Assembly: GCF_026616195.1 (NCBI RefSeq)
Contig: NZ_JANHDH010000001.1
Span: 1,178,001-1,242,000 of the forward strand
Reading direction: 5' to 3'
DNA: 64,000 nucleotides
Source: Haloarchaeobius amylolyticus
GTDB lineage: Archaea; Halobacteriota; Halobacteria; Halobacteriales; Natrialbaceae
Below are positions 27,828 to 35,903 of the stretch, piece by piece. The notes beneath the pieces were generated by a model. It saw only the letters and a list, made by a program, of their open reading frames with translations. It was not told where the DNA came from and ran no database searches. How positions within the stretch are numbered: position 1 is the first letter of the stretch; each line of letters begins with the position of its first letter. Both the position numbers and the translations under genes were made by a program.

Positions 27828-28106
27828 ATGGTCGAAATCGAGACAGAAGAACAGAAGACACGGGCGGAGATCGCCGCGTGTCTCCGCATCCTCGCCGACC
27901 AGTTCGAGCGAGACGGCGAGGTCCGGGTCCGCCTCGGCGGCGAGGACGTGACCTTCGACCCGGCCGACACCGTGAACGTCAGGCTGGAGACCGAGTCGGA
28001 GCTCTCACCGGAGTCCGTCCGGATGTACCGCCGTGTCGGGTTCGACATCGAGTGGCTCCAGCCGGTCCCGGTGCGGTCCGACCCGGTCGACAGCCGGAAC
28101 CGGTGA
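27828..28106 (+). CDS. Amphi-Trp domain protein
   Basis: The 92-residue protein fits the small haloarchaeal amphi-Trp domain: KTRAEIAACLRILADQFERDG, then a strand pair around VRVRLGGEDVTFDP, and FDIEWLQP with the characteristic Trp at the end. The domain is often found alone and its function is unknown. A TATA-like CCTTATCAGG lies about 28 bases before ATG 27828. Its last 102 bases overlap the 3' end of the convergent membrane-protein gene. Confidence 0.75.
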   Translation: MVEIETEEQKTRAEIAACLRILADQFERDGEVRVRLGGEDVTFDPADTVNVRLETESELSPESVRMYRRVGFDIEWLQPVPVRSDPVDSRNR

Positions 28107-29753
28107 GCCGGCGCCAGCCCTGTCTTCTCCGGTGTCGTCGCCTGTGACCGCGACCACCACCACCTCCTCGTTCTCGTACGCGATGGTGTAGCGCTCGCTC
28201 TCGACCAGCGACTCGCGCATCTCGGGGGACTGGTGCTCGAGCATCCCGCGGACGGTGTAGCCCTGTTTCGGGACGTAGACGTACTCCGGCGCGTAGTCGT
28301 ACTGCTCCAGCGTGGCCGTGATGCAACTGGCGTCCTCACACGTCGAGATGTCCCGGTAGGTCGAGAGGTGGTGTTCGTACTGGGCGGGGGTGGTCCACTC
28401 GACGCCCCAGGGCCCGAGGAGGATGCTCCGCCCGGACTGCTGGGGGAACCACTCCGCGGCGTCGCCGAGCACCACGAAGTCGGCCGACGCGGCGGTGTTC
28501 GCCTCGGCCCACTCCATCGCCTCGACGTCGTGCTCGTCGACGAACGCGGGCTGTGACGGGTCGCCGTGGTGGGTGTCGACCACGCCGCCGGCGTAGGTGA
28601 CGCCGACCGCGACCGCCGAGAGCGACAGCAGCGCGATGGTGAGGAACGACGCGGTCTGTCGCCAGCCCGGGACGGTCCCGTCGTCGAGGCGGTCCGCGAG
28701 GGCCGGGACGACCTCGAAGACGAACTGGGCGACGAGGATGCCGCCCGCGAGGAACTGGAAGCGGGTCTTCCCGAGGACCCACGCCGACACGAACAGCCAC
28801 GTCGGCAGGAGGAACCGGCGCTTCCAGAGCGCGTACAGCCCCGCCAGGTAGGTCGCGACGAAGAAGGGCGTGACCGCGTCCGCGACGGCGAGGGGCTGGA
28901 CGAACTCGTCGTAGAGCCGGCCGGTCCCGCCGCCGAGGCCGGAGTGGGTCCCCGCGGCGCCGAAGAACACGTCGAAGCCGTGGTGCGAGGCGACGGTCAG
29001 CCACCACGGTGCGGTGAGGAGGACGCCGCCGACGGCCACTATCGCCCCGTGGACCAGCCCGACGGGGGACCGGTCGAACGCGGCGTAGAGCAACAGGAAG
29101 TTCAGCCCGAAGCTAACCGCGTAGAGCGGGTGCGTGAGGATGGTCAGCGCGAACAGCACCAGCCCGGGGGCGAGCCAGCGACGGTCGCCGTCGCGGAACA
29201 GCCGGAGGCCGGCGAACACCCCGGCGACGACGAAGAGGAACGCGGGCGCCCGGTTGATACCGCCCGCCGAGAGGTGCCACTGCAGCACCGGCGGGGCGAC
29301 CGCGAACACCAGCGAGGCGAAGGCGGCCCGGCGGGGCGACCCGAGGAACTCACGTGCCACGTAGAAGTACGGGACGACGGTCGCGAGCACGACGAGGCCG
29401 GGGAGCAGCCGACTCAGCAGGAAGGCGTCGACCCCGGTCAGGTCGCGGATGACCCCGACCACGTAGAACATGAGGGGTGGGTACGCCAGGGGGACGCCCT
29501 CGGCGGTGTAGCCGGGTACCGTGGGTGGGAGCCCGTAGCCGTGGGCGCTGATGGTGTCGGCGATCTGGACGTACAGGCCGGCCCCGAAGGCGGGGTACCG
29601 GTGCGTGACGAGGTAGCTGGCGTAGACCAGCAGGCCCGCGACCAGCGCGAGGCCGAGCCACGGTTTCTCGCCGAACCGGCTCGTGGCCAGTCGTGTCGCG
29701 ATACGGGTCGTGAGAGATGTCGAGGTCGAGTCTCGCGTGGTAGAATGTCCCAT
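28005..29753 (-). CDS. GT-C-like polytopic membrane protein
   Basis: The 582-residue protein has about eleven hydrophobic segments up to residue 400, then an extracellular soluble domain. The first loop carries FGAGLYVQIADTISAHGYGLPP, in the position of the GT-C (dolichol-phosphate-sugar transferase, GT39-like) catalytic loop, although I do not see a clear acidic pair. The soluble part includes FVVLGDAAEWFPQQSGR. The last 40 residues are low-complexity Asp/Arg/Gly/Pro and are encoded opposite the amphi-Trp gene, which suggests a run-on past an older stop codon. Likely acts in surface glycan assembly, judging also from the neighbouring sulfotransferase-like gene. Confidence 0.65.
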   Translation of the reverse strand: MGHSTTRDSTSTSLTTRIATRLATSRFGEKPWLGLALVAGLLVYASYLVTHRYPAFGAGLYVQIADTISAHGYGLPPTVPGYTAEGVPLAYPPLMFYVVGVIRDLTGVDAFLLSRLLPGLVVLATVVPYFYVAREFLGSPRRAAFASLVFAVAPPVLQWHLSAGGINRAPAFLFVVAGVFAGLRLFRDGDRRWLAPGLVLFALTILTHPLYAVSFGLNFLLLYAAFDRSPVGLVHGAIVAVGGVLLTAPWWLTVASHHGFDVFFGAAGTHSGLGGGTGRLYDEFVQPLAVADAVTPFFVATYLAGLYALWKRRFLLPTWLFVSAWVLGKTRFQFLAGGILVAQFVFEVVPALADRLDDGTVPGWRQTASFLTIALLSLSAVAVGVTYAGGVVDTHHGDPSQPAFVDEHDVEAMEWAEANTAASADFVVLGDAAEWFPQQSGRSILLGPWGVEWTTPAQYEHHLSTYRDISTCEDASCITATLEQYDYAPEYVYVPKQGYTVRGMLEHQSPEMRESLVESERYTIAYENEEVVVVAVTGDDTGEDRAGAGSPVPAVDRVGPHRDRLEPLDVEPDTAVHPDGLR

Positions 29754-29799: not shown

Positions 29800-31248
29800 T
29801 CAGTCGCGGTGCAGTTCGAGCGGCTGCTGGACCGAGACGGAGTAGGGGGTCCAGCGGAGTTCGAGGACGGCCCAGACGAGCAGCGAGACGGTCCCGACGA
29901 CGAGGGCCGCGACCTCCAGCGCGCCCATCCAGATCGGTTTGACGTACATCAGGGCGTTGAACACCTTGCCCGGCAGGAGGCCCTTGAACGCGAGCCAGAG
30001 GCTCCCGAGGAGGCCGGCGCTGTCGGTGTTGCCGGTCGACCCGGCACCGTCGTCGTCGCCCGCGCCGGGACCAGCACCGCCGTCACCGGCCGAGCCGTTC
30101 GTGGCCGAGTCGTCGTCGCCGGTACTGGATTCGCCACCGATGGCCTGCATGCTCTGGCCGCCGGTACTCTCGTCACCGGTCCCGAGGCGCTCGGCCTCGT
30201 AGGGGAACGCCACGTCGACGCTCCAGACGACCTCGCCCTGCGGGTTCACCTCGAAGACCCTGTTCCCGTTGGAGTCGGTGATGAGCGTGTTCCCGTTCGG
30301 GAGGCGGTCGGCGTCGCGGGGCCACTGGGCGCGGGCGTCGCTCCACGTCCACGACCGGGTCCAGTTCCCGTCGGTCCGCTGGTACTCGACGATGCGGTTG
30401 TTCTCGGAGTCGGCGACCAGCACGGCCGGGCCGCCGTTCTCCGCCGGGATGTAGTCCGGGTTGTGCTGCTCGTAGATGGTGTCGTGGTCCCCGTCCTCGC
30501 CCAGCGTCCAGTTCTCGACGAGGCCGGTCTCGCGGTCGAGGAAGACGACCTGGTCCTGGTTGCGCAGGCTGGCCATGATCCGGCCGTCCTGGACGACCTC
30601 GACGTCGTTGACGTGGGTCCAGTCCTCCGGGTAGGGGCCGCCGCTGGTGCGCGGATAGGCGGCCTGGGCGTCCCACGACCACTCGACCAGCTCGGTGCTG
30701 GTGTTCACGACGAACACGCGGTCCTGGGCGATGTCGGCGACGACGTACCGGGTGTCGTTCAGGCGGTCGCCGTCGTGCCACCGCGTCGAGTGCTTGCCCG
30801 GCGTGACCCGGGAGTAGACGTCGGTGACGTTCCCGGTCGTGAGGTTGACGCGTTCGATACCGTTCCGGGTACAGACCGAGTCGCTGTTGCACTCCTCGGC
30901 CGGCAGGTGGTCGGCGTAGAGGTACTCGACGGTCGCGTTCGTGCCCTCGACCGGGTCGACGTCCCAGTAGCGGGTATGGGAGTCGTTGTAGTACAGCGTA
31001 CTCCCGTCTTCGGCGAACGCGACGAGCTCGGCGTTCGAGCGCGGCCCCTCCTGGGCCGAGCCGAGGAACGTGTTCGAGTCGGTCGCGATGACGGTGATTC
31101 CGTCGCGGGGCGGGGCGGCCTGGGTGTGCGAACCGGTGTCGGCGAAGTCGCTCGTCCGGTCGGCCGTGACCAGGCCGAACGTGAGCGTCAGGACGGAGAG
31201 CAGGACGACGACTCCGAGCGCGACACGGCACCCTCGTCTCGTGAGCAT
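29800..31248 (-). CDS. Arylsulfotransferase-like beta-propeller protein
   Basis: The 482-residue protein has an N-terminal signal or anchor (residues 8-28), a beta-propeller region with repeated strand patterns (VFVVNTSTELVEWSWDA, HVNDVEVVQDGRIMASLRN, HNPDYIPAENGG, PNGNTLITDSNGNRVFEV) typical of arylsulfate sulfotransferase (ASST) and NHL proteins, a Gly/Asp/Ser linker (about 365-410) and a C-terminal transmembrane helix near 440-465. ASST enzymes transfer sulfate between phenolic groups, but many archaeal homologues are untested. It is transcribed toward the GT-C-like gene 46 bp away, so the two may form an operon. Confidence 0.75.
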   Translation of the reverse strand: MLTRRGCRVALGVVVLLSVLTLTFGLVTADRTSDFADTGSHTQAAPPRDGITVIATDSNTFLGSAQEGPRSNAELVAFAEDGSTLYYNDSHTRYWDVDPVEGTNATVEYLYADHLPAEECNSDSVCTRNGIERVNLTTGNVTDVYSRVTPGKHSTRWHDGDRLNDTRYVVADIAQDRVFVVNTSTELVEWSWDAQAAYPRTSGGPYPEDWTHVNDVEVVQDGRIMASLRNQDQVVFLDRETGLVENWTLGEDGDHDTIYEQHNPDYIPAENGGPAVLVADSENNRIVEYQRTDGNWTRSWTWSDARAQWPRDADRLPNGNTLITDSNGNRVFEVNPQGEVVWSVDVAFPYEAERLGTGDESTGGQSMQAIGGESSTGDDDSATNGSAGDGGAGPGAGDDDGAGSTGNTDSAGLLGSLWLAFKGLLPGKVFNALMYVKPIWMGALEVAALVVGTVSLLVWAVLELRWTPYSVSVQQPLELHRD

Positions 31249-31412
31249 CTACCGGGACGTGGGGAGTGAGGGGGTTTACTATAGAGCCGGTAACCGCGGG
31301 ACGTGGACACACAGAAACCGTCCTGAACAGTTGGGCTCGACCGGCGGGTCCCCGTCCCGTCCCGCTTAAACCGTTCATAATAATCCCCACGCCCGGAGAA
31401 CGGGACCGACGA

Positions 31413-32732
31413 ATGGGACGCGTCTCGCGCAGCCGGCTCGTGCTCGCGCTCGCCCTCGTGGCCGCGGTCGCGGCGCTGGGTTTCGACGCCCGGCCCCGGT
31501 CGGACCCGGCCACGGAGAGCGCGAAGTCTCCGGCGGAGGTGAAGCTCCAGCCGGTCGAGGAGAACGGGTCCACCGCCCTGTGGCCCTTCACGAGCCGGGC
31601 GACGCGCTTCGAGACGCTCACGCTCCCCATCAACGTCGTCGTCCGGGAGGACCCGGCGGTCGTCCGGGCGATGCTGACGCGCGAGGCGACCGACGGCTCG
31701 GGCTCGCTCGACCGCGACGGCGAACAGCGCGTGCTGCCCGACCTCGGCGGCGACGTGTGGGGCCGGACCCACGGCGCGACCCGCTACACCTACGTCCACG
31801 ACCGGCGCACCGACGAGGGGTCCTGGCAGACCGAGTACGCCCAGTTGCACGTCGGGACCTACCTCGGCAGCCGCCAGCACGTCCGGCTGTACGCCGTCCC
31901 CGGCGAGGACGGGCGAGCGACCGCGATCCAGGCCCACCGCGAGCACTGGGACTGGTTCCGCCTGCGCCACACCGTGGGGAGCACGGCCGCGGGCCAGACC
32001 TACCTCGAACGCCAGTTCTACGGCGTCCCCACCGTCGAGGAGGTGAGCCGCGAGCGCTACGCGAACGGGGGCATCCTCGACGCCGACGGCTGGGCGACGG
32101 TGGTCGACGTCCGCGAGCGACCGGCGCTGCCGCCCGAGGGCGTCGGCGGCGGCAGTACGCCCGCGAGCCTCGTGATGGCGGCTGCGACGCTCGGCGGCCT
32201 GGTCGCCATCGCCGGCGGGTTCGCCGAGGACGAGATCGACGAGGTGCGCCGGGAGGCCGCCGACGCCCTCGCCGAGTTCCGGTCGGACCTCGACGTGACG
32301 CGGGGACACCTCCTGCTGTTCGGGAGCCTCGCGACCATCCCGGTCGCCGTCCGCGCCGGGAGCGTCGCCGTCGAACGCCTCGGCGTCGTGGCGAACCCGA
32401 AGCTCGTCGCGGCCGTCTTCTACCCCCTGCTCGTCTGCGGCCTGCCCCTCTGTGCGTATCGCTTCGCGACCCGGCTCGGGTTCGCCGAGAGCGCCCTCGT
32501 CGCCGTCCTCGGGCTCCTGACCGGCGTCGTCGCGGAGTACACCTACCTCGGCATCGAGGTCATCCCGCGGTACGTGCTCGTCCAGCGCGCCCTCCTGCTC
32601 GGTGCCATCGCCGTCGTCGCCGCCGCCGGGACCGTCCGGCACGAGCGGCGGTGGCGCGAGAACGAACTCCTCGCCCTCGGCGTCGCCTGCTGGGCCATCG
32701 CCGTGGCGTGGCCCCTGCTCGACCTCCTCTGA
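31413..32732 (+). CDS. Membrane protein with possible LssY_C-like domain
   Basis: The 439-residue protein has an N-terminal anchor (8-24), a large extracytoplasmic domain to about residue 245, a helix at 248-268, a charged cytosolic loop and about five more helices to the end. The outer domain (LPINVVV, QLHVGTYLGSRQHVRLY, AIQAHREHWDWFRLRHTV) resembles the LssY C-terminal domain that is often linked to PAP2 phosphatases; this is a tentative resemblance. The PAP2 gene two places downstream supports it. The next gene starts four bases after its stop. It diverges from the ASST-like gene. Confidence 0.65.
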   Translation: MGRVSRSRLVLALALVAAVAALGFDARPRSDPATESAKSPAEVKLQPVEENGSTALWPFTSRATRFETLTLPINVVVREDPAVVRAMLTREATDGSGSLDRDGEQRVLPDLGGDVWGRTHGATRYTYVHDRRTDEGSWQTEYAQLHVGTYLGSRQHVRLYAVPGEDGRATAIQAHREHWDWFRLRHTVGSTAAGQTYLERQFYGVPTVEEVSRERYANGGILDADGWATVVDVRERPALPPEGVGGGSTPASLVMAAATLGGLVAIAGGFAEDEIDEVRREAADALAEFRSDLDVTRGHLLLFGSLATIPVAVRAGSVAVERLGVVANPKLVAAVFYPLLVCGLPLCAYRFATRLGFAESALVAVLGLLTGVVAEYTYLGIEVIPRYVLVQRALLLGAIAVVAAAGTVRHERRWRENELLALGVACWAIAVAWPLLDLL

Positions 32733-32736
32733 GACC

Positions 32737-34614
32737 ATGACAGACCCGCCCGACCCGCCTCCGACAGCCGAATCGACACGCGACCAGGACCACCCCCGCG
32801 AGACGCGGCCGACCCTCGACCGCCGGACGCTACTCGGCGGGCTGGCGAGCGCCGGCATGGCCGCGACAGCCGGCTGTGCGAAGAAGGCCCACTCGATGCT
32901 GAACCGACCGACGCCCGAGCAGGTGTCGCTCTCGGTGAAGACCGTCCCCGCCGACGACGACCCGGTCGCGACCCGCATCGCGCGCTACCTCGTGACCAGA
33001 CTCCAGCAGGTCGGCATCGACGCGTCGGTGCAGCTGCTCCGGCGCGAGGACCTCCTCATCGACGTGCTGTTCAAGCAGTCGTTCGACCTGTACGTGTGGC
33101 GCCTGCCCGACCTGTCAGACCCCGACCGGCTCCGGTCGCTGCTGCACTCCCGGTTCGCGGTCGAGCCGGGCTGGCAGAACCCGTTCGGGTACGCCAACCT
33201 CGGCGTCGACGACCTGCTGACCCGCCAGCGCCGGCTGCCCGGGTCGCGCCGCCAGCGCGTCCTCGCGACGCTCCAGCGGCAGGTCGCCCGGACGCTCCCG
33301 TTCGTCACCATCGCGTTCCCGAGCGAGGTCCGGGCGGTCCGGAACGACGCGGTCGCCCACGTCGGGGACCCCTCGCTCCACTCGCCGCTGAGTTACTGTC
33401 GCCTCGACGCGACCGACCCCGACGCGACGACCGGCGCGGCCGAACCGGAGACCACGACCGAGTCCGACCGGCGGACGCTGACCGCGACGCTCAGCGACGC
33501 GCGCCAGACCGAGAGTCTGAACCCCCTCGCGACGGAGTACCGCGACGACTGGACCATCCCGGAACTGCTGTACGACCCGCTCGCGCGGGCCGTCGGCGGT
33601 CGGCTCCGGCCGTGGCTGGCCCGGTACGTCGACTGGCACAGCGACGCGGGCGACGGCGGCCCGGTCGCGACGCTGACCCTCCGCGAGGGCTGCACCTGGC
33701 ACGACGGTACCCCGGTCACGGCCGACGACGTGGCGTTCACCTACCGCTTCCTCTCGGACACCTCGCTCGGTAGGATGGAGAGCCCGCTCCCCGCGCCGGC
33801 GTTCCGCGGCCGGACGACGCTCGTCGACTCGGCGATGCCGCTGGACGACCGGCGCGTCCGCCTCTCGTTCGTGCCGGCCAGCCGGCGGGTCGCCCGCCGG
33901 GCACTGACCGTGCCCATCCTGCCCCGGCACGACTGGGAGGACAGCAGCGAGCAGGCGAACGTCCCCGGCGTGCAGAACGGCCCGGTGACCAGGGCGCTCG
34001 TCCGGGACAACTTCCCCCCGGTCGGGAGCGGCCCGCTGCGCTACGAGTCCCGGAAGATCCGGAACTCCCTGACGCTGGTCCGCAACGACGAGCACTTCCT
34101 CCACCGCGGGGACACCGGCGGCCTGCCGACCGCGGTCGACGGCTTCGACGTGGACGCGCTCCGGTTCCGGGTGGTCCCGTCGGGCGCCGTCGCCCGCGAC
34201 CTCGTCCTCGACGGCGAGGCCGACCTCTCGGCCAGTCCCCTCTCGCCCGACGCGGTCCGGCCGGTCGGCGAGTCGAACGAGGTCACCCTGCACGTCCAGG
34301 AGTCGCACTCGCCGTACCACGTCGGGTTCGACGTCCGGTCCGCGCCGCTCAGCAACGGCCGGTTCCGGCAGGCCGTCGCCCAGCTGCTCGACCGTACGCA
34401 CATCGTCGACGAGTTCCTCGACGAGTTCGCCCGCCCCGCGGTGAGCCCGCTGGCGGCGACCGGGAGCGTCCCGGCGAAACTGCAGTGGTCGGGCGAGGAC
34501 CCGCTGTTCCCGTTCCCCGGGTCGGACGGCGAACTGGCCGTCGACCGCGCGAGACAGGCGTTCGTCGACGCCGGGTACCGCTACAGCGACGACGGCGAAC
34601 TCCTCGCACGATGA
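32737..34614 (+). CDS. Solute-binding lipoprotein, family 5-like, apparently circularly permuted
   Basis: The 625-residue protein has a Tat signal with lipobox (DRRTLLGGL, ATAGC, Cys47), so it is a lipid-anchored exported protein. Two parts resemble peptide/nickel-binding proteins (SBP family 5). Residues about 246-625 match the normal N-terminal lobe, with CTWHDGTPVTADDVAFTYRF (320-338), FRQAVAQLLDRTHIVDEF (543-560) and a final DRARQAFVDAGYRYSDDG. The normal C-terminal lobe, which should follow, is instead at residues 62-222 (VATRIARYLVTRLQQVGIDA, SFDLYVWRLPDLSDP, NPFGYANLGVDDLL). No permease or ATPase gene is nearby. Ligand unknown. Confidence 0.75.
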   Translation: MTDPPDPPPTAESTRDQDHPRETRPTLDRRTLLGGLASAGMAATAGCAKKAHSMLNRPTPEQVSLSVKTVPADDDPVATRIARYLVTRLQQVGIDASVQLLRREDLLIDVLFKQSFDLYVWRLPDLSDPDRLRSLLHSRFAVEPGWQNPFGYANLGVDDLLTRQRRLPGSRRQRVLATLQRQVARTLPFVTIAFPSEVRAVRNDAVAHVGDPSLHSPLSYCRLDATDPDATTGAAEPETTTESDRRTLTATLSDARQTESLNPLATEYRDDWTIPELLYDPLARAVGGRLRPWLARYVDWHSDAGDGGPVATLTLREGCTWHDGTPVTADDVAFTYRFLSDTSLGRMESPLPAPAFRGRTTLVDSAMPLDDRRVRLSFVPASRRVARRALTVPILPRHDWEDSSEQANVPGVQNGPVTRALVRDNFPPVGSGPLRYESRKIRNSLTLVRNDEHFLHRGDTGGLPTAVDGFDVDALRFRVVPSGAVARDLVLDGEADLSASPLSPDAVRPVGESNEVTLHVQESHSPYHVGFDVRSAPLSNGRFRQAVAQLLDRTHIVDEFLDEFARPAVSPLAATGSVPAKLQWSGEDPLFPFPGSDGELAVDRARQAFVDAGYRYSDDGELLAR

Positions 34615-34635
34615 CCGGCACGGAGGGTCGCTGAG

Positions 34636-35436
34636 ATGGGCGTCGTCGCCGTCGCCAGCAGCGTCCTCGTCATCGACCTGCTGCTGTTCACCGTCGCCGG
34701 CGTCGTGCTGTTCGACCGGCCCGCACTGGCCCGTGCCCGCGGCCACATCGGGTCGCGCCTGCGCGAGGTCGTCCCCTACGTCGTCGTCCTGGGCGGGGTC
34801 CTGCTGGTCAACCGGGTCGCCCGCGAGGCGGGGCCGGACCTCTCGTACGTCATCGGCTGGAACCTCACCGACGAGCTGTACGCCATCGAGGGGACGCTGG
34901 TCGCGACCATCCAGACCGTCCAGCATCCCCTCCTGACCCGGTACTTCTCGTTCATCTACCTGCCGGGCTACGTCTTCCTTCTGACGTTCCCGCCCGTGCT
35001 GTACGTCGTCGCCCGGGACCCCCGCCCCCTGAAGGAGACGATACTGACGTTCACGCTGAACTACTCGCTCGGGCTGGTGTGTTACATCCTGTTCATTTCA
35101 TACGGCCCGCGGAACCTGCTCCCCGAGGCCGTCGAGCCCCTGCTCTACTCGACCTACCCCGACACGCAGGTCCTCACCGGCGAGGTGAACTCGAACTCGA
35201 ACGTGTTCCCGTCGCTGCACGCCTCGCTGTCGGTGTCGGCCGCGACGCTGGCGGTCCGGCACCACGACGCCTACCCGAAGTGGACGCCCATCGCGGTCTG
35301 GGGGGCCGCCAGCGTCTGTCTCGCGACGATGTACCTCGGCATCCACTGGGCGACCGACGTGGCGGCCGGTATCGTGCTCGGCGTCGGGAGCGTGTGGCTG
35401 GCGGGGCGGGTGGTCGACTGGGAGGAGCGTCGTTAG
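34636..35436 (+). CDS. PAP2-family membrane phosphatase
   Basis: The 266-residue protein has six or seven membrane helices and the second and third PAP2 phosphatase motifs: FPSLHAS (about 191-197) and YLGIHWATD (about 214-222), with the catalytic His pair. A first motif (KxxxxxxRP) is not clear, but ARDPRPLKET may fill the role. The family dephosphorylates lipid phosphates such as undecaprenyl- or dolichyl-type carriers or phosphatidic acid. It starts 21 bases after the solute-binding gene; the last four bases overlap the convergent lipoprotein gene. Confidence 0.85.
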   Translation: MGVVAVASSVLVIDLLLFTVAGVVLFDRPALARARGHIGSRLREVVPYVVVLGGVLLVNRVAREAGPDLSYVIGWNLTDELYAIEGTLVATIQTVQHPLLTRYFSFIYLPGYVFLLTFPPVLYVVARDPRPLKETILTFTLNYSLGLVCYILFISYGPRNLLPEAVEPLLYSTYPDTQVLTGEVNSNSNVFPSLHASLSVSAATLAVRHHDAYPKWTPIAVWGAASVCLATMYLGIHWATDVAAGIVLGVGSVWLAGRVVDWEERR

Positions 35437-35903
35437 GCGTCGTCTCTGAACGGGGCGAGCACGTTGCAGTGGTCCTGGTAGAAGACCTGCGCGAACGAGA
35501 GTCGGCCGGTGTAGGAGTGGCCGACCCCCAGATTGAGACAGCCATCCCTCGGCAGGAGCCGCGAGCAGTCCACTTCGTGGACGTTCGATTCATCATCGAC
35601 CCGAACCCTGACGAGCCAGTCGCCGACGACCGACTCGAAATCGGGCGGTGAGACGAGCGCGTTGTACGCCCGCTGGTCGGTCCGACCGCGGATCGGAATC
35701 GACTCCTCGAACTGCAGGTCCCCATCTCGCCACAGTTCGAGATGGTACGTGTGAGGCTCACCGGACGGGTCCTCGTTTTCCACAACCACGGAAACCAGTC
35801 GGTAGGGTGGGTTTGACGGTTCACCGCCAAGGCAGCCAGCCACCGCACTGGCCACCCCTGCCGAGACACTCCTGAGGAGAATACGTCGAGAAATCGGCCG
35901 CAT
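35433..35903 (-). CDS. Small predicted lipoprotein, hypothetical
   Basis: The 156-residue protein has a Tat-like signal, ISRRILLRSVSAG, and a lipobox ending VAGC (Cys23), so it is probably exported folded and lipid-anchored. The mature part is a beta-rich domain with LVSVVVENEDPSGEPHTYHLELWRDG and three later cysteines. I recognise no enzyme motif. It overlaps the convergent PAP2 gene by four bases. Function unknown. Confidence 0.7.
   Translation of the reverse strand: MRPISRRILLRSVSAGVASAVAGCLGGEPSNPPYRLVSVVVENEDPSGEPHTYHLELWRDGDLQFEESIPIRGRTDQRAYNALVSPPDFESVVGDWLVRVRVDDESNVHEVDCSRLLPRDGCLNLGVGHSYTGRLSFAQVFYQDHCNVLAPFRDDA

Follow-up and report, generated by a model that had tools for sequence, protein, structure and literature searches.

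In Halobacteria, a gene for a binding lipoprotein with permuted lobes (gene B) and a gene for a PAP2_3-type membrane enzyme (gene C) form a near-obligate pair, the constant core of a three-gene set. The third member, the membrane protein gene A, is often unlinked from the pair yet co-inherited with it. We tentatively propose, at somewhat less than an even chance, that the trio is a single haloarchaeal envelope module that operates on the outer side of the membrane and takes no part in nutrient import. The set consists of known folds; the combination is permuted and importer-free. RefSeq labels B "ABC transporter substrate-binding protein" and A "hypothetical," and the misleading import label on B has hidden a module that is present in 94 of the 145 Halobacteria genomes sampled.

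The trio lies in a window of 64,000 nucleotides from Haloarchaeobius amylolyticus, whose genome comprises 4.6 Mb in six contigs. An earlier note on this window had described three tightly packed genes, and this description was confirmed. A (31413-32732), B (32737-34614) and C (34636-35436) are complete plus-strand frames with no internal stops, separated by gaps of 4 and 21 bases, and a codon-usage gene caller returned the identical three frames with identical starts. A encodes a membrane protein of 439 aa with relatives in 88 of 145 genomes, B a circularly permuted family-5 solute-binding lipoprotein of 625 aa, and C a PAP2_3-type, AUR1/IPC-synthase-like membrane enzyme of 266 aa. The 164 bases between the trio and a divergent neighbor pair (31249-31412) are likely to be the trio promoter region. 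A small lipoprotein-like gene of 156 aa (35433-35903, minus strand) lies tail to tail with C and had no Pfam or NCBIfam match. PADLOC assigned A, B and C to no defense-system family, and a defense-system reading of the trio was dropped on that result.

B matched SBP_bac_5 (PF00496) at 129 bits (cut-off, 32.4), covering only profile positions 2 to 286 of 368; seven of the eight other SBP_bac_5 matches in the same genome reach positions 360 to 365, and one reaches 327. The term "permuted" in the earlier note is right because the C-lobe missing from the profile match sits at the N terminus of B. Profile alignments equate residues 56 to 231 (32902-33429, plus strand) with the C-terminal part of ordinary family-5 proteins, and profile alignments together with the structural model equate residues 232 to 625 (33430-34611, plus strand) with the N-terminal part. 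A profile built from 38 B relatives matched AppA (1xoc) as two stretches in swapped order: profile positions 234 to 548 aligned with AppA 36 to 317, and positions 43 to 186 aligned with AppA 356 to 496 (i-Evalue of 2.3e-6 for the latter). When B was aligned as is by hhalign with four ordinary binding proteins of its own genome, it likewise gave two swapped matches (E values of 3e-28 and 6e-5) and hence departed from the conventional SBP_bac_5 lobe order. Exchanging the two segments of B yielded a single continuous match of 469 columns (E value of 1.7e-32). In hhalign, the N-terminal segment (56 to 231) aligned with template positions 386 to 551. The template consisted of four cleanly trimmed proteins (L244, L245, L247 and L249); the other four ordinary binding proteins were left out, having no lipobox in range. 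An earlier, cruder HMM of all eight, four of them over-long read-through ORFs, had given a mean gain of less than 1 bit and an N-segment E value of at least 0.038. The AlphaFold model of B (mean pLDDT, 84.8) superposes over residues 241 to 625 on AppA 17 to 356 (Z of 21.9, rmsd of 3.2, 331 aligned).

The N terminus of B carries a twin-arginine pair (residues 29 and 30) and a lipobox with Cys 47, as read from the sequence (32737-32877, plus strand). Residues 29 to 47 read RR...TAGC, a prokaryotic lipoprotein signal with its lipobox. Twin arginine and lipobox occur together in 33 of the 38 aligned B proteins, that of the window included, and several of the five relatives without the signal are short proteins whose starts were called late. 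Profile-profile alignment and the lipobox signal together confirm B as a permuted binding lipoprotein: it is a family-5 binding fold with circularly permuted lobes. B relatives almost always keep the lobe motif G-W-Q-N-P-[FY]-G, a pattern that would fit one fixed ligand type.

The claim that no permease accompanies the binding protein was borne out. Among 44 matches to BPD_transp_1 (PF00528) in the genome, the closest one on the contig of B lies about 56 kb off; a permease lies within about 1 kb at seven of the eight other SBP_bac_5 matches. A permease HMM was built from 28 proteins of this genome and run over 120 B loci, 40 of them spanning as much as 20 kb and 80 taken with flanks of at most 4 kb per side. 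Any match was found in just 3 of the 120, and none inside the B operon, so the search for permeases linked to B elsewhere also favored a permease-free setting (117 of 120 loci). The three matches were about 9 kb away, weak (9e-4), and about 3 kb downstream of B, respectively. The same HMM fired in seven of eight ordinary SBP loci, whose nearby proteins were partly in its training set. B therefore does not have the linked permease of an ABC importer binding protein, and nutrient import was judged the less likely reading on these linkage data. Another SBP_bac_5 gene of this genome, at C2:103732-104961, likewise has no permease nearby; it has the normal lobe order and covers profile positions 1 to 360.

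C scored 63 bits against PAP2_3 (PF14378; cut-off, 27) and 44 bits against PAP2, which is also over the cut-off; PAP2_3 fits better. In an alignment of 33 relatives, the motifs of C are GPRN (residues 157 to 160), PSLH (192 to 195) and HWATD (237 to 241), encoded within 35104-35358 on the plus strand. PSLH, HxxxD and GPR[NQ] are present in all 33 proteins. We take K-x6-R-P, P-S-x-H and S-R-x5-H-x3-D to be the PAP2 motifs named C1, C2 and C3. The His/His/Asp catalytic core of canonical PAP2 phosphatases (P-S-x-H of C2 and H-x3-D of C3) is thus found in 33 of 33, while neither canonical C1 nor canonical C3 with its arginine was found in any of the 33. AUR1 transfers headgroups and does not merely hydrolyze them, and it is not known to carry motif C1. 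Judged by its motifs, C looks like a member of the AUR1/inositol-phosphorylceramide-synthase branch. With C1 and canonical C3 both missing, C appears more like an AUR1-type phospho-headgroup transferase, and the earlier description of a lipid-phosphate phosphatase was not supported in the form given. C and AUR1 have the PAP2_3 model and the PSLH and HxxxD core in common, with no canonical C1 in C, although the match between them is weak. Against PDB sequences, the C profile found PgpB (1.5e-6), YodM, LpxE and, weakly, AUR1 (0.005). Two Haloarcula plasmids in GenBank annotate C as "inositol phosphorylceramide synthase," and RefSeq records call it "phosphatase PAP2 family protein." Haloarchaea build their membranes from ether lipids and are not known to make sphingolipids, so the substrate of C must differ from that of AUR1.

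Co-occurrence was scored in the whole draw of 145 Halobacteria genomes. Strong B and strong C matches were found in the identical 94. The full tally for B was 96; G121 and G131 were excluded as weak (6e-22 and 9e-30), with no strong C and no listed place. The tally for C was 105, of which 11 genomes with weak matches only (E value of 5e-16 or worse) were treated as carrying other PAP2 proteins; the C match of G136 (7.2e-45) was counted and is absent from the places listed. Among the matches listed, C lies directly downstream of B on the same strand at 115 of 135 B places, mostly within 100 bases, and at 15 of the other 20 places the B is the latter of the two in a B-C-B array. B and C adjoin in 91 of 94 genomes with a listed B place, which is above chance. 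Adjacency was taken from 102 of the 150 matches listed for A and 135 of 150 for B, second pieces of one gene being omitted, and from all 150 for C. The trees of B and C correlated across 33 pairs (Spearman coefficient of 0.64); this mirror-tree comparison had no species-tree control and is not counted as evidence.

Of the 94 B/C genomes, 88 contain A, which none of the 51 others does. Among the matches listed, 26 genomes have it no more than 2.5 kb upstream of B-C, 29 have it at most 5 kb from B, and it is remote in the rest. In ten genera that are polymorphic for the pair, A is present in 19 of 19 B/C-positive genomes and missing from 23 of 23 negative ones, among those listed; four of these genera have A on a different contig from B or at a distance of over 50 kb. 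This within-genus concordance is the better argument for A because Fisher p values ignore kinship. A full A is missing from six of the 94 genomes, and A went undetected in four B/C genomes. Two members of one genus (G027 and G011; L259 and L260) retain a short stretch of A just upstream of B, a remnant that marks decay of A in that genus. The expectation of a conserved, permease-free trio thus held, with the qualification that B-C forms the constant core and that A, frequently at a separate locus, is inherited along with it.

A has no recognizable function by fold. Its model (mean pLDDT, 79.8) has one N-terminal helix, an alpha/beta domain at residues 43 to 234 and several C-terminal helices. 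The soluble domain (31539-32114, plus strand), delimited by invariant columns and by the model, has the pattern R-x-H-[IV]-R-x-Y ... Q-x-H ... D-W-F among relatives; the membrane helices of the model span residues 279 to 435 (32247-32717, plus strand). Given the arginine-rich N terminus and the positive-inside rule, the soluble domain is predicted most likely to lie outside the membrane. The suggested likeness to LssY_C was weakly upheld among relatives, 10 of 31 of which matched LssY_C at an E value of 5 or less (best, 1.7e-4, below membership by our standard). It was not upheld for the A protein of the window itself, which had no match to any Pfam family, LssY_C (PF14067) included, nor did a search of its own genome with LssY_C return any. 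We draw no function from the fold of A, as Foldseek found no PDB match to the model at an E value of 0.001 or less and VIA-align gave nothing above a Z of 7.5, which is within the noise of the tool for such models. In LssY, the C-terminal domain gives Pfam its LssY_C family and is said to be joined to PAP2. This joining recalls the pairing of A and C in the operon, and the soluble domain of A resembles LssY_C in those same relatives. Unlike LssY, A has membrane helices of its own and no PAP2 part, and the window copy lies below LssY_C detection. The soluble domain of A also stands alone in two genomes of the phylum from outside Halobacteria (L257, 6325-7314; L258, 6375-7625), as a secreted-type protein adjoining a small multi-helix protein, i.e., the architecture of A split in two.

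Divergent from the trio lie a gene for an arylsulfotransferase-like protein (29800-31248, minus strand; PF05935, 38.5 bits) and one for a multi-TM protein (28005-29753, minus strand), which scored 21.6 bits against PTPS_related, below the cut-off of 26.4, and which we read as GT-C-like. The best 13 matches of the arylsulfotransferase-like gene in the 145 genomes, itself included, all adjoin B, in 13 genomes, and the four that rank next come from genomes that have no B. Among 40 B loci, at least 11 have the arylsulfotransferase-like gene (it is not present in 29) and at least 10 have the multi-TM gene; these are lower bounds because L102 had no gene calls and B was missed at some of the 40 loci. 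The 123 neighbors of B loci include nine arylsulfotransferases and four GT4-type genes (grouped by clustering, from the two loci L093 and L107), while the 25 most frequent families among 105 genes further out include neither. In L093 and L107 the GT4-type genes stand on the flanks of B-C, and in L110 and L127 such genes lie close to A. Phosphohexose mutase genes adjoin in L104 and L073, and a phosphoglucosamine mutase gene does so in Haloferax gibbonsii and in Haladaptatus halobius, the latter also with glmS nearby. For some lineages this pattern favors a product that bears sugar; it has no bearing on the rest.

In the envelope module that we propose, C would act at the outer face on a polar lipid or a polyprenol carrier, whose phospho-headgroup it would move or remove. 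B, tethered beside C, would bind the water-exposed part (sugar or headgroup) of the donor, acceptor or product, and bound B could present the ligand or gate the C reaction, much like LpqW. A would be a partner in the membrane onto which B or the lipid docks. A lipid-linked ligand is suggested by gene content and by the LpqW precedent. In some lineages the product is probably a (sulfated) glycolipid or lipid-linked glycan, given that sulfotransferase-like, GT-like and phosphohexose mutase genes join the set there; the variation of these neighbors between lineages speaks against a universal glycan link.

LpqW (PDB 2grv) is among the fold matches of B (Z of 19.5, rmsd of 4.2, 327 aligned). In the model superposition its residues 25 to 385 align in conventional order with B 244 to 625. 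Passages of PMC3229680 and PMC10928101 describe LpqW as a mycobacterial lipoprotein that steers AcPIM4 towards lipomannan/LAM, and the reference list of PMC12041525 has an entry for the LpqW work. LpqW and B are alike in carrying the family-5 binding fold on a lipoprotein, the role of LpqW being in envelope lipoglycan synthesis. A regulator of the LpqW kind would control a polyprenol-dependent GT-C pathway; a candidate GT-like neighbor accompanies B in at least 10 of 40 loci. Unlike LpqW, B is permuted, has a Tat-type signal and is paired with a PAP2_3 gene, and LpqW may serve as a precedent by fold, not as a claimed orthologue or relative. Several points weigh against the module. The list of fold matches that includes LpqW runs to 50 of nearly equal Z, mostly ordinary ABC binding proteins; PgpB-type phosphatases outrank AUR1 for C; and remote permeases may serve orphan binding proteins, the gene at C2:103732 being another without one nearby.

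Three other explanations draw on the same data. B might be an orphan binding protein for a remote peptide or sugar ABC permease, with C and A as unrelated neighbors. Orphan binding proteins served by remote permeases exist, B keeps the family-5 fold, and the genome offers 44 permease matches. With AppA/OppA/NikA-type SBP_bac_5 proteins B has both lobes and the fold in common, but its lobe order is swapped, which shifts the lobe ends, and it has no linked permease. C follows B at most of the places listed and the two occupy identical genomes, A tracks B even when unlinked, and permeases are near B at very few loci, which together make this reading improbable. The alternative that C is a plain polyprenyl or lipid phosphate phosphatase recycling a carrier, with B and A sensing or chaperoning the released carrier, has in its favor the PAP2 score, the PDB matches to PgpB, YodM and LpxE, and the invariant PSLH and HxxxD. 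We regard it as rather unlikely because C1 and the C3 arginine are missing throughout, PAP2_3 outscores PAP2, and some records name C an IPC synthase.

The trio might also be a sensory unit, in which B binds an outside ligand and signals via A while C adjusts lipids or is incidental. A does combine a soluble domain with membrane helices, and haloarchaeal chemotaxis provides a precedent in BasT and CosT, where binding proteins act as receptors without permeases. However, searches of A detected no kinase, HAMP, methyl-accepting or output domain, and the constant adjacent partner of B is C and not A. We consider a sensory unit quite improbable.

Returning to the envelope module, a bolder version is possible, if on balance unlikely: that the set marks a hitherto undescribed archaeal envelope-lipid pathway comprising an AUR1-type lipid phosphotransferase, a dedicated permuted lipoprotein and an LssY_C-like partner acting in cis or in trans. 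In such a pathway B would deliver or withhold the water-exposed substrate of the AUR1-type enzyme, and the permutation would mark the exit of a family-5 protein from ABC import into enzyme service. Literature searches, with preprints and most subscription journals outside their scope, found no description of the module and surfaced Legionella lss. If the envelope-module proposal is true, B would join LpqW as a second case of a binding-protein fold that left import for envelope synthesis, one that carries a recognizable structural mark, and the set would give a first handle on the role of AUR1-like genes in ether-lipid cells.

The best 80 of 167 B loci in a species-genome collection and all 12 of the plasmid records with B are haloarchaeal. 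Haloferax gibbonsii ARA6, a laboratory haloarchaeon, has the trio on its plasmid pHG2. In a phylum-wide draw, B was found at an E value of 1e-30 or less in 18 of 33 Halobacteria and in none of 163 other genomes, the 33/163 split being taken from table order. In Haladaptatus salinisoli, B and A are on separate plasmid records (NZ_CP085333 and NZ_CP085330), with A in trans. Within the family to which the window belongs, tandem B-C-B or B-C-B-C arrays occur in L083, L091, L095, L096, L097 and others.
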